DNA of 64,000 bases from Oscillospiraceae bacterium (GTDB lineage Bacteria > Bacillota > Clostridia > Oscillospirales > CAG-272), in NCBI GenBank assembly GCA_015064185.1, contig SVSS01000003.1, positions 1-64,000 of the forward strand, written 5' to 3'. Shown piece after piece: positions 4,745 to 29,840 of this stretch; the stretch's first letter is position 1; each line of letters begins with the position of its first letter. The translations under genes were made by a program, and so were the position numbers. Below the pieces are notes generated by a model. That model ran no database searches. It was not told the DNA's origin and saw nothing but the letters and a program-made list of their open reading frames with translations.

Positions 4745-4767
4745 TGATAGATTTATGAAAGTAATGG

Positions 4768-4805
4768 AAAAGGGAGAGGACTTTTGCAAAAGTCCTCTCC
4801 CTTTT
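4768..4805 (+). terminator. terminator hairpin (GAGGACTTTTGCAAAAGTCCTC family)
   Basis: AAAAGGGAGAGGACTTTTGCAAAAGTCCTCTCCCTTTT; the core recurs at 18301. Confidence 0.7.
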
Positions 4806-4823
4806 CCCTACTTGCGCGTTTGT

Positions 4824-4888
4824 GTAGGGGCGATTCACGAATCGCCCGCGATATGGTTTGTTTCGGGCGATTCGTGAATCGCCCCTAC
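4824..4888. repeat. interspersed palindromic repeat, GTAGGGGCGATTCACGAATCGCCC family
   Basis: GTAGGGGCGATTCACGAATCGCCC ... GGGCGATTCGTGAATCGCCCCTAC; further copies at 18124 and 20430. Confidence 0.85.
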
Positions 4889-18123: not shown

Positions 18124-18190
18124 GTAGGGGCGATTCACGAATCGCCCGCCGAAACCGCACCAAAATGGGCGCTTCGTGAAGCGCCCCTAC
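18124..18190. repeat. interspersed palindromic repeat, GTAGGGGCG family
   Basis: GTAGGGGCGATTCACGAATCGCCC...GGGCGCTTCGTGAAGCGCCCCTAC. Confidence 0.85.
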
Positions 18191-18300
18191 GGGAAATCAT
18201 CTCTCCGTACGCCTTGTTCGCACATTGCCCTGCCCTTCCCCTTTTTAAAGGTTTTGGGAGTGTGGGAGTGAATGTTTTTTGCCGTGGGGCAAAAAACAAA

Positions 18301-18340
18301 GAGGGAGAGAGGACTTTTGCAAAAGTCCTCTCTCCCTCTC
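18301..18340 (-). terminator. terminator hairpin of the acyl-CoA ligase gene
   Basis: GAGGGAGAGAGGACTTTTGCAAAAGTCCTCTCTCCCTC; T-rich beyond the stem on the minus strand. Confidence 0.7.
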
Positions 18341-18359
18341 TTATTTTCTCCCCACTCGA

Positions 18360-20429: not shown

Positions 20430-20494
20430 GTAGGGGCGATTCACGAATCGCCCGAACCAAACCGCACCGCGGGCGATTCATGAATCGCCCCTAC
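20430..20494. repeat. interspersed palindromic repeat, GTAGGGGCG family
   Basis: GTAGGGGCGATTCACGAATCGCCC...GGGCGATTCATGAATCGCCCCTAC. Confidence 0.85.
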
Positions 20495-24242: not shown

Positions 24243-24536
24243 AACTGCTTTTGGTGCTCCTTTCTTGGGTTGCGTGGCGTCCGGGATACAGGCAGAAGTG
24301 TGATTGCCTGCTACGAATGCGGATCGGTGTGTATTATTATATCATTTAAACCGCGTTTTTGCAACAGTATTTTGCCGATTTTTTGATTTTTTTACGCGCG
24401 CGAGAAAAATAAGGAGAAAAACACACGCGCCGTAAAAACAAAGGGTAAAAGGATCTCAACAGGCAAATAGATATAAACAAAGGCCTGCTGCCGCAAGGAA
24501 AGCGGGCTTAAATGGCAAGAGGTCGTTGTTGTTTTG

Positions 24537-24690
24537 TGTTTCACGTGAAACATCAATGTAAAAATATCTCGCGGCTGCATTAAGACTGCGCGGCGGCAAT
24601 GTGTTTCACGTGAAACAAAATTGTCGCAAACAAAAATGTTTCACGTGAAACAGTGCTTAATTCCGAGTCAAAGTTGTTTCACGTGAAACA
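24537..24690. promoter_or_regulatory. parS: cluster of four perfect parS centromere sites
   Basis: TGTTTCACGTGAAACA at 24537-24552, 24602-24617, 24637-24652, 24675-24690. Confidence 0.97.
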
Positions 24691-24692
24691 AC

Positions 24693-25685
24693 CTATCCCT
24701 TTTTTGGGATCCGAATGAGAATATGCGCAAACTCTTCGTCCTCTTCCTTGCGGTAGTCTGCGCTCACCCCCGTCTTTTTAAATATACCCAGCGTGCGCTC
24801 AATGGAATTGTATAGCGGTTTGAGGTCGCGCAGGGCAAACTTTCGCGGTGTGACCCCAACTCCCTGCACGTTAAGCGCTTGCTTTTGTGGCAAAACGGGC
24901 TCGTTTTCGGCGCTTTTTTGCTGTTTTGGGGCAAAAAGCACATCCATTTCCTGTTTAAGCGTGGGTATTTGGTCAGCTTGAGGGTGCTCCTTGCTTTCAT
25001 TTAGGAATACTTTGCCACCCAAGCGTTGATCTACCAGCGCTTCTGTGCTTGCTACATTTCGGTTCTCCTTTTGTGCTGTGGTGATCACTTCAAGGCGCAT
25101 TGCCGGGTCTGTGATCCGCAAAAAAGCGCGCGCGTGGCGCTCGGAAAGCCCACCTGCCACAATGATGCGGCGCTCCTCGGGTGTTAATTTTAGCAGCCGT
25201 AGCTTGTTTGCGATGGCAGATTGCGAGAGCCCCATCTTTCTTGCAATCTCCTCTTGGGTCATGTGGTACTCCTGCATAAGGCGAAAAAATGCCTCTGCAA
25301 GGGCAAAAAAGTGCAGATTTTCGCCTCTCAACTGTAAAATTGCCGCCATTTGCATGCATTTTGCGTCATTTGGCGCTAATACAAGGCAGGGGAGCTTGTC
25401 TATGCCTGCAAGGGCGGCGGCGCGAAAGCGGCGCTCGCCGTCTATCAACTCATAGATGGGAAATCCGTCCTTTTGCGTGGATAATTTCACGCAAAGTGGC
25501 TCCAATATGCCGTATTTTCTGATAGATGTGGCGAGTCTAATGATGGCATTTTGCTCATTTTTGGGGTTTTGCGGTGCGCTTTGCACCAAAATTTGCTCTG
25601 CGGCAAGAAAAATAGGTGTTTCCACCGCGCTTCCTCTGCCAAAATGCATTGCCGAAGCGGTCGCGCCGCTATATAAACTCTTCAT
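24693..25685 (-). CDS. noc: ParB-family protein, nucleoid occlusion (Noc)-like
   Basis: ERRFRAAALAGIDKLPCLV; HTH GLSQSAIANKLRLLKL; SERHARAFL; start at 25685 with GGAGGT RBS; gene order rsmG-noc-soj-spo0J. Confidence 0.85.
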   Translation of the reverse strand: MKSLYSGATASAMHFGRGSAVETPIFLAAEQILVQSAPQNPKNEQNAIIRLATSIRKYGILEPLCVKLSTQKDGFPIYELIDGERRFRAAALAGIDKLPCLVLAPNDAKCMQMAAILQLRGENLHFFALAEAFFRLMQEYHMTQEEIARKMGLSQSAIANKLRLLKLTPEERRIIVAGGLSERHARAFLRITDPAMRLEVITTAQKENRNVASTEALVDQRLGGKVFLNESKEHPQADQIPTLKQEMDVLFAPKQQKSAENEPVLPQKQALNVQGVGVTPRKFALRDLKPLYNSIERTLGIFKKTGVSADYRKEEDEEFAHILIRIPKKG

Positions 25686-25914
25686 TTTTAACCTCCATGT
25701 TGAAATTTTGGTGTTCAACTGTATCATAGCACAGGTGTATACGGGAAAAATGTCACAATTAAATGGTAAAATATGGAAATTAAAAACAAAAAATCACGGT
25801 GAAGCGTGAAAAAAGCAGAAAGGTGGGGGTTATACAAGAGAAAATGAGGGTCGTTGGCAAAAAATATGTGCGATCGGGCGATTCCTTGACCTGTAAAACG
25901 ATGCTTTTTATAAA

Positions 25915-27086: not shown

Positions 27087-28952
27087 TCAATGCACACCAA
27101 GGTAAATAAGCAGCACCGAGATGTCCGCAGGACTTACACCACTGATGCGCGAGGCTTGCCCAACGGTTGCAGGTCGTATGGCGGAAAGCTTTTGTGCCGC
27201 TTCTATTCTAAGACCGGTTATTTTTTGATAGTCAAGGGTGTCGGGAAGCATTCTTGACTCTAACTTTTCATGTCGAGAAACTTCTACCATTTGGCGGTTA
27301 ATGTAGCCTTCATACTTGATTTGAACTTCCACAGAAAGCGCGGCTTTCTTTGTCAGGATAGGGCGTGAGGGGTCAAGAGGCTTGAGAGAATCATAGGTGA
27401 TGCCGGGGCGGCGCAAAAGATCGGCAAGAGAGATGCCTGTGGAAACGGGGGATTGCCCCAATCCCGCGAGAAACGGGTTGACCAATGCGGGCGAGAGGTG
27501 TGTGGTGTTCAGGCGCGTGATCTCCGCTGAGATGGCGGCTTGCTTTTCTTCGAAGGCGGCAAAGCGTGCATCGTCGATCAGTCCAACCCTGTGTGCAATG
27601 GGCGTCAAGCGCGCGTCGGCGTTGTCCTGGCGCAGCAGTAAGCGGTATTCCGAGCGTGAGGTCATCATGCGGTAGGGTTCGTTTGTGCCCTTGATGATAA
27701 GATCGTCAACCAAGGTACCAAGATAAGAGCTTGCGCGCGGTAAAATCACAGGGGGCTGACCCTTTACCTTAAGGGCGGCATTCATGCCGGCAAGCAGGCC
27801 CTGTGCCGCCGCCTCCTCGTAGCCCGAGGTGCCGTTAAACTGCCCCGCGCCGAAAAGACCGCCGATCTTTCTGAATTCAAGGGTTGCGGTAAGCTCCGTG
27901 GGGTCACAGCAATCATATTCTATCGCATAAGCATAGCGCATCATCTCGGCGTGCTCAAAGCCGGGGAGCGTGTGCAGCATTTCTGCCTGCACGTCGGTAG
28001 GCAGAGAGGTTGAAAAGCCTTGCAAGTAAAGCTCATCCGTGTCAGCGCCAATGGGCTCAAGGAAGAGCTGGTGGCGCTCCTTGTCGGCAAAGCGCACGAC
28101 CTTATCCTCGATTGAGGGGCAATAACGGGGACCTGTGCCGTGAATATGGCCGCCATACATGGCGGAACGGGATAGATTTTCGCGAATGACGCGATGCGTT
28201 TCTTTGTTGGTATATACAATGTGACAGGGGAGCTGCGCAACACCTGCCATATAGTCCTCGGGTGTGTCGGCGGCATAGGGCAGAGGGTCAGCCTCGCCCG
28301 GCTGCACCTCTAAGCGGTCAAGCGCCACAGATCGGCGGTTGATGCGCGCAGGTGTGCCTGTTTTAAAGCGGCGCAGGGTCACGCCAAGGTCACCAAGGGC
28401 TGCGGAAAGTCCGCGCGAGGGTAAAAAGCCGTCGGGGCCGCTTTCATAATTCACGTCGCCCACGAAAATGCGGCTTTCAAGGTACGTGCCTGCGGCAACA
28501 ATGGCACATTCACATGCCCAAAGCTCGCCAAGATGGGTCATTACCCCGCAAACGTGATTGTTTTCATCGGTTTTGACCGAAACGATCTCGGCTTGCACAA
28601 GGCGCAGGTTTTCGGTGCGCTCAAGCACCGATTTCATGTACGCCTGGTAGTGCTTGCGGTCTGCCTGCACGCGCTTGGAGTGCACGGCGGCACCCTTACC
28701 AAGATTCAGGGTGCGCGATTGGAGCGTTACGGCATCTGCCGCGCGACCCATTTCGCCGCCGAGCGCATCGATCTCATACACGAGATGCCCCTTTGCCGTG
28801 CCCCCGATCGAGGGGTTGCAGGGCATATTGGCGATCGCCTCAAGAGAAATGGTAAATAAAACGGTATCAACGCCCATGCGAGCGCTTGCCAGCGCCGCCT
28901 CGATGCCGGCATGCCCCGCACCGATCACGGCGACCTTGGTAGAAAGCTTCAT
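27087..28952 (-). CDS. mnmG: tRNA uridine-5-carboxymethylaminomethyl modification enzyme MnmG/GidA
   Basis: VIGAGHAGIEAALASARMG, CNPSIGGTAKGHLVYEIDALGGEMG. Confidence 0.97.
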   Translation of the reverse strand: MKLSTKVAVIGAGHAGIEAALASARMGVDTVLFTISLEAIANMPCNPSIGGTAKGHLVYEIDALGGEMGRAADAVTLQSRTLNLGKGAAVHSKRVQADRKHYQAYMKSVLERTENLRLVQAEIVSVKTDENNHVCGVMTHLGELWACECAIVAAGTYLESRIFVGDVNYESGPDGFLPSRGLSAALGDLGVTLRRFKTGTPARINRRSVALDRLEVQPGEADPLPYAADTPEDYMAGVAQLPCHIVYTNKETHRVIRENLSRSAMYGGHIHGTGPRYCPSIEDKVVRFADKERHQLFLEPIGADTDELYLQGFSTSLPTDVQAEMLHTLPGFEHAEMMRYAYAIEYDCCDPTELTATLEFRKIGGLFGAGQFNGTSGYEEAAAQGLLAGMNAALKVKGQPPVILPRASSYLGTLVDDLIIKGTNEPYRMMTSRSEYRLLLRQDNADARLTPIAHRVGLIDDARFAAFEEKQAAISAEITRLNTTHLSPALVNPFLAGLGQSPVSTGISLADLLRRPGITYDSLKPLDPSRPILTKKAALSVEVQIKYEGYINRQMVEVSRHEKLESRMLPDTLDYQKITGLRIEAAQKLSAIRPATVGQASRISGVSPADISVLLIYLGVH

Positions 28953-28983: not shown

Positions 28984-29261
28984 TAGGCAAGAGGGAATAA
29001 TCCGAACTCGGTTTTGAGAAGCAAATATCTGCATCTGCATCAGGAAATTTCCTTGTAATATCCCCATATTACTGCGAAAATTCCCCTCGCATCTACAAAT
29101 ATTTGCTTTCTCAAAACTCCAAGGGACCCTCAAGCGTTGTTTTTTTGATGATTTTGGTGCTTGGCGATCGCCGCCAAGTACGAACTTGGTAAGAGCGATA
29201 AGTACCGAAAGCGCGAAAAAGCAAGGCTTGAGGGCGGGTTCGGATTATTCCCTCTTGCCTA
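28984..29261. repeat. palindromic structured element (MITE-like or ncRNA), 24-bp perfect terminal inverted repeats
   Basis: TAGGCAAGAGGGAATAATCCGAAC (28984-29007) and its exact reverse complement (29238-29261); nested inner stems; TA at both ends. Confidence 0.8.
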
Positions 29262-29840
29262 GCGTGTGGTGTTCGATAAAACGGTGCCGGACGGGTTGTA
29301 AAAACGGCACACGGATAGCATTTTTGCGGTTGCCTCGAAGTAAAATATCGCGCGGCGCTTTTCGCGGTTCTTGTCGTTGCCCAACTCAAAAAGCATAATA
29401 TAGATATCGGGAGCAGACATGCTTGAAACACCCACAAACTCTCGCTCGGGCGCATAGGCGGTTGCGCGATCTGCTTCCAGAGGGGCTTCAAGGGGCGCAA
29501 TACGCACGGCATCCTTTAGCTTCATTTCAAAGATCTTGCGGCGCGAGCGGTTGCCATAGATCTTGGTAAAGGTAAGCGTGCCTGAGGTAACGGAGTATTC
29601 ATAATCCACCGAAACATAGCGCCACGTGATAAAAATAATCAGCCAAAGCGAGAGGGGGACAAAGGCAAGCAGAGGTGCTATAATTTGAGCTTTCATACCA
29701 AAAAACAGGACCACCAAGGGATAAAGGCAATAAAACGCGATAAGCCCGATCCGCGCGGCAAGCCACTTTCCCTTGGGCTTTTGTGAAACAACAAATTCAT
29801 AGGTTAAAAACTCATTCACAGAGCACTCACTCCTTTTCAT
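29259..29840 (-). CDS. hypothetical membrane protein
   Basis: 193-aa ORF with two TM segments; its TAG stop lies in the right terminal repeat of the adjacent element. Confidence 0.7.
   Translation of the reverse strand: MKRSECSVNEFLTYEFVVSQKPKGKWLAARIGLIAFYCLYPLVVLFFGMKAQIIAPLLAFVPLSLWLIIFITWRYVSVDYEYSVTSGTLTFTKIYGNRSRRKIFEMKLKDAVRIAPLEAPLEADRATAYAPEREFVGVSSMSAPDIYIMLFELGNDKNREKRRAIFYFEATAKMLSVCRFYNPSGTVLSNTTR

Follow-up and report, generated by a model that had tools for sequence, protein, structure and literature searches.

The 278-bp element at positions 28984 to 29261 (+ strand) of the window, by which we mean the whole 64,000-nucleotide stretch of DNA analysed, is a mobile, TA-duplicating repeat with a covarying fold. 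It sits between genes, and its ends, arms and total length persist from copy to copy through base changes that compensate one another within pairs. We find it fairly probable that it is a non-autonomous, MITE-like TA-inserting repeat of about 278 bp that is moved in trans, and that its folded strand is recognised during mobilisation. The preliminary description had left a choice between a MITE and a structured RNA. The two proved not to be exclusive, as both a mobile element and a conserved fold were found; the IS630/mariner origin that it proposed for the MITE, on the other hand, was not supported.

Ends and predicted fold

The 278 bp include a TA at both ends, the left one at 28984-28985 and the right one at 29260-29261. 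The perfect 24-bp terminal inverted repeats reported earlier were confirmed, 28984-29007 being the exact reverse complement of 29238-29261, and the inverted-repeat arms extend to 28984-29010 and 29235-29261 (27 nt, 96%; + strand), which form the 5' and 3' sides of the closing stem. The minimum-free-energy fold contains the three-way junction with two arms that had been drawn for this sequence. Arm 1 (29011-29117, +) is a long interrupted stem of helices 2-5, and arm 2 (29127-29234, +) is a long interrupted stem of helices 6-9 that is rich in G-U on the + strand; in the consensus structure a junction segment (29118-29126, +) separates them. The sequences of both described apical hairpins occur at their given coordinates. 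That of arm 1, GTAATAT-CCCC-ATATTAC (29055-29072, +), is present in the predicted fold; at that of arm 2, GTGCTTGGCG/CGCCAAGTAC (29157-29181, +), the predicted folds pair this portion otherwise and place the tip slightly further on. The minimum free energy of the element is -143.3 kcal/mol compared with -71.3 +/- 5.0 for shuffled sequences (z -14.3), and none of 200 shuffles folded as well.

As stated in the preliminary description, there is no convincing ORF within the element. With a length below 500 bp, terminal inverted repeats of 24-27 bp and no transposase gene it is a MITE in the broad sense. Since it carries no gene, we infer that a TA-choosing enzyme would move it in trans.

Insertion site and empty alleles

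The element is antisense to both of its neighbours in the window. The mnmG (gidA) gene lies outside it at 27087-28952 (minus strand; Pfam GIDA, E 2.7e-149), and on the other side a 193-aa ORF at 29259-29840 (minus strand; Pfam DUF6106 match below cut-off) has its stop codon at the insertion point. This stop is TAG and is partly made of the element's right TA; at the corresponding place in the empty allele of the congener G015 it is TAA.

The suggestion that the terminal TAs represent a target duplication was upheld by the empty-site comparison. G015 has a single TA at the site, GATGAGAGT-TA-GCGTGTGG, and when the window flanks are joined by one TA they match G015 with 98% identity over 242 bp and no gap. 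The element was inserted at a TA and left one TA on each side. The simplest reading of the alignment is that it arrived after the split from G015, duplicating the TA exactly. A second empty site, with a copy in G003 and none at the same site in the host genome (G000), is consistent with insertion, and a 4-bp junction gap makes the TA duplication unreadable there. Upstream of mnmG in G003, the same intergenic gap holds a degenerate sequence (L159:810-890) that looks like a remnant of the element's right part.

Copies and genomic contexts

The element is dispersed, with multiple copies in the host genome itself and in congeners. In the host genome there are three full copies, with identities of 100, 94 and 85%, and one fragment, and among 20 congeners many carry full or partial copies, with a maximum of 22 match rows per genome. 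Congeners and related genomes from gut metagenomes together provided 36 distinct full-length sequences, which occur in 37 contexts. Scanning named genome contigs for the pattern led to uncultured Clostridia/Oscillospiraceae assemblies, mostly from the gut of deer, sheep, goat and yak; three further matches, L110, L111 and L113, look like chance. Plasmid collections and phage collections gave no match to the element. Several contigs (C31, C40 and C14 of G003; C2, C3, C14 and C18 of G019) have an end within or right at one of these palindromes, and counts of copies based on short-read assemblies are therefore probably too low.

TA flanks both ends in 35 of the 36 aligned copies. In G019 copies lie head to tail with one TA common to adjoining copies, and 16 of 138 distinct end contexts show an element end abutting another element. 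Within 5-20 kb of context, where genes were taken as longest-ORF predictions, only one of 42 copies overlapped a predicted ORF, and this was at a contig-end tandem. The gene gaps that hold copies are divergent, convergent or co-directional, with no preferred orientation of the element to the genes. Among the 42 copies with context no significant orientation bias to coding strand or GC skew was found; for family A, to which the element of the window belongs, 16 of 30 copies agreed with the majority coding strand and 10 of 30 with the sign of the GC skew, both on short contigs. Such a bias would be predicted by a strictly lagging-strand mechanism, and a bias relative to replication would also be looked for in an IS200/IS605-type single-strand element.

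Short derivatives with TA ends were also detected, of 74-76 bp and 45-46 bp. Miniatures of 74, 45 and 46 bp, again bounded by TA, lie at L075:1334-1450 and L081:2445-2490, and two of them form a tandem with a common TA. As the derivatives of 45-76 bp keep the TA ends, the arms may be dispensable, unless the derivatives are deletion products. The short direct repeat GCAAGAGTGA, found in the left end and again within arm 2, could yield the 76-bp form by deletion.

Covariation and strand signals

Covariation was assessed in 36 copies over the 92 pairs of the consensus fold. The fold proved to be conserved and covarying across copies, with standard pairs in 96.7% of the pair cells and both-side changes in 43 of the 92 pairs. 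Cells with both-side changes numbered 239, compared with 57.7 +/- 5.8 after shuffling and at most 36 with the partners slid. Compensating changes were found in the closing stem (8 pairs with both-side changes) and in both arms, arm 1 having them in 23 of its 35 pairs. By letter, unpaired columns are not conserved above paired columns.

Template switching in palindromes can copy one arm to the other, and quasi-palindrome correction of this kind occurs in bacteria. The covariation could then stem from mutation bias and not from selection, which would agree with the symmetric variation of the element's ends. Such a bias should, however, remove mismatches and internal loops. Instead the loops persist at their positions and distant copies have a loop motif in common, and total length is near 278 nt in most of the order-wide matches described below. 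We consider this explanation very unlikely.

In arm 2 we found G-U in 14 columns versus A-C in 2 (p 0.004; 16 representatives, majority-G-U pairs excluded), a bias that falls short of proof because neither the columns nor the lineages are wholly independent. No wobble bias towards one strand is seen in arm 1 or in the ends. The + strand has the lower fold energy in 28 of 36 copies. The wobble bias is suggestive of selection on the + strand, as RNA or as single-stranded DNA, over part of the element.

These strand signals and the strong covariation would speak for a structured RNA, be it an RNA gene or a cis-regulator, that is incidentally mobile, its transcript being retained to serve the host or the element. 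Against this, copies have no preferred orientation to genes, their presence is sporadic, the element is antisense to both neighbours in the window, and no Rfam family corresponds to it: in Rfam 15 neither the window nor 16 loci holding diverse members matched a relevant family, the matches of the window being miRNA models only and far below threshold. We regard an RNA gene or regulator as improbable. Host effects of the mobile repeat, for example on the processing of read-through transcripts between neighbour genes, are likely side effects.

A sister family and relatives across the order

The sequence abutting several family A copies led us to a second family, B, which has the layout of family A, a length of 277-281 bp and the ends TA-GCCGCACGGGARYCGAAC or TA-GCCGTAAGAGAGTCGAAC. 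The GGTTCGATTCCCGTGCGGC beside several copies had hinted at a tRNA-derived origin; this was rejected, as ARAGORN found no tRNA there and GGTTCGATTCCCGTGCGGC is the end of family B. Elements of the two families adjoin with one TA in common at L137:1503-2105 and L069:3545-3899, and also in L024 and L105.

A covariance model, R1, built from family A alone matches family B over its full length (E about 1e-31 to 1e-43). Over the order R1 matched 26 of 149 genomes, in 18 of 87 genera and 12 families, and most matches are full length at about 275-282 nt. The inspected order-wide sequences mostly have TA at both ends, and their terminal letters differ widely (TAGGGTAGAG, TAAGCAAACA, TAGCTTCAAT and others). 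In a diverse structure-guided set, with the alignment fitted to the model, mean identity is 53% and standard pairs occupy 91% of the pair cells. Elements of the same design with differing terminal sequences occur across the order.

It should be noted that the antisense strands of family A copies score 104-130 bits with R1. The scores thus partly reflect general shape, and the case for distant kinship leans on the shared length, on the TA ends and on the loop motif. This motif, CYYG...CYGCG around the arm-1 hairpin, recurs at almost the same place in 12 of 25 distant copies, compared with 5 for the antisense strands and a shuffled expectation of 0.3, and supports a presumed kinship for part of the distant copies. 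The matches in L209-L213 have neither TA ends at the called boundary nor the loop motif. L214 and L215, from family f2, are 164-175 nt long and apparently consist of arm 1 only, within long inverted ends.

Lineages differ in the letters of their ends but keep the closing stem and arms paired, and for this reason a folded single strand is probably what is recognised. The machinery of mobilisation would then read a folded single strand, either DNA during replication or transfer, or RNA, and not only the terminal double-stranded sequence. More tentatively, and with less than even confidence, we speculate that there may be an order-wide superfamily defined by a conserved two-armed single-strand fold of about 278 nt, not by its ends, and moved at TA by a structure-reading enzyme.

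Search for a mobilising enzyme

The search for a partner covered DDE_3, DDE_Tnp_1 and RAYT (REP-associated tyrosine transposase), in incomplete metagenome assemblies, and among these no mobilising enzyme was found. Multi-copy insertion sequences are often lost from such assemblies. A TA-targeting partner transposase would be expected to have the ends TAGGCAAGAG or TAGCCGCACG.

The assignment to IS630/mariner made in the preliminary description found no backing, as DDE_3 (IS630) transposases were detected in none of the 21 genus genomes and no matching ends were found. DDE_Tnp_1 (IS4/IS5-type) transposases were likewise detected in none of the 21. No pairs of matching ends 0.8-4 kb apart, as in a transposon-sized version, were found in the genus, and the scanned order-level DDE_3 loci gave no match to the element's ends. 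Within the order, 31 of 396 genomes have IS630 transposases, with none among the matches listed for the host family f1. The ends of two inspected IS630 elements, from a genus that also carries the structured repeat, differ from those of the repeat.

An ordinary IS630/Tc1-mariner MITE, whose double-stranded terminal repeats are recognised by the transposase and whose internal fold is an incidental palindrome, would typically have a TA duplication and inverted ends of about 24 bp, for which RUP and IS630-Spn1 provide a precedent (PMC2229807, PMC3049150), and suitable transposases do occur in the order. But the genus lacks both the transposase and the matching ends in the searches above, and an incidental palindrome would not retain two arms, length and compensating changes order-wide. 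We therefore think an ordinary MITE of this kind rather unlikely.

A hairpin-acting HUH enzyme would explain both the conservation of the fold and the absence of DDE transposases, and the RAYT of these bacteria might mobilise the folded single strand. Some genomes of the genus have a RAYT gene, which in most loci is flanked by a DUF512-like gene and der; it matches NCBIfam REP_Tyr_transpos at 1e-17, under the cut-off of that model. The divergent RAYT (HUH) gene of the host genome is at L230:1450-1998 (minus strand; G000:C10), and others were seen in L228, L229, L231, L235, L237 and L238. As a mobiliser the RAYT was set aside. Its association with the element is weak in the genus, where it occurs in 7 of 14 genomes with elements and 0 of 7 without (p 0.047), and unsupported over the order, where the two co-occur in 8 of 26 element-bearing genomes (149 in total) compared with 5.6 expected (p 0.20). 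No RAYT was matched in G019, G093, G045 and G122 despite their many copies of the element; G093, G122 and G045 are nearly complete genomes with 6-10 element matches each. Moreover, the GTAG repeats within the RAYT gene are identical to others found in the window, so that the gene has a partner system of its own. The element is not made of GTAG-tagged short palindromes, and its ends begin with TA followed by letters specific to the lineage. Mobilisation by this RAYT appears highly improbable to us.

The GTAG-tagged inverted repeat pairs of the window (GTAGGGGCGATTCACGAATCGCCC...) are REPIN-like and lie at 4824-4888, 18124-18190 and 20430-20494. Inside the RAYT genes of the genus the GTAG repeat sequence reads as 'VGAIHESP', and the repeat-derived peptides differ among RAYT orthologues. 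Near the REPIN-like pairs, palindromes with GGACTTTTGCAA at 4766-4807 and 18284-18355 represent another short dispersed repeat.

Comparison with known repeats

Palindromic TA-flanked repeats of the ERIC and Correia type have been known for decades, and the movement of several of them is still open. In the open-access literature the element falls outside the named families of TA-inserting palindromic MITE-like repeats, and an earlier description elsewhere is possible. We set it apart from ERIC, Correia/NEMIS, RUP and CIR by their published descriptions. All are palindromic, intergenic and non-autonomous with TA ends (PMC2229807, PMC3049150, PMC10969869). The element differs in its order-wide spread, in its changing ends with a constant fold, and in having 278 bp and a closed three-way junction, compared with about 100-200 bp for the others (PMC2229807).

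ERIC (IRU, RU-1) is an intergenic, palindromic repeat with TA ends in many genera of enterobacteria (PMC2229807, PMC10969869), but has 127 bp, a single long stem-loop and terminal repeats of about 7 bp, in contrast to the 24-27-bp closing stem and two arms seen here. Correia/NEMIS of Neisseria shares with the element TA ends and terminal inverted repeats of about 24 bp; it forms a strong stem when transcribed, for which RNase III cleavage is reported (PMC2229807, PMC10969869), but it is shorter (a 107-bp species is named in PMC2229807), belongs to Neisseria and has no two-armed junction. RUP of pneumococcus targets TA, and its mobilisation in trans by IS630-Spn1 has been proposed (PMC2229807, PMC3049150); it has 107 bp and a partner IS with the ends of RUP, whereas an equivalent partner was sought for the element and not found. 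CIR of Caulobacter and Brucella has TA ends and a predicted two-armed RNA (PMC2229807), yet it is about 110 bp long with the arms joined by a linker and no closing terminal inverted repeats, while the element is closed by its terminal stem. The repeats of REPIN/RAYT systems are, like the element, palindromic and dispersed, and they are linked with an enzyme that reads hairpins; they consist of GTAG-tagged short units with no TA duplication and are a separate system in the host genome.

The element represents a larger, two-armed kind of such repeats, for which there are deep comparative data and recent insertions, as well as lineages in which the ends have changed and the fold is kept. Changed ends with a kept fold make it testable whether sequence or shape is recognised, and correlating copy number with gene content across a large set of genomes could lead to the enzyme.

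Other features of the window

At 24534-24690 the window has several parS-like TGTTTCACGTGAAACA sites beside a parB-like gene (24693-25727). Together with mnmG and rsmG, these sites and the parB-like gene fit a region near the replication origin.
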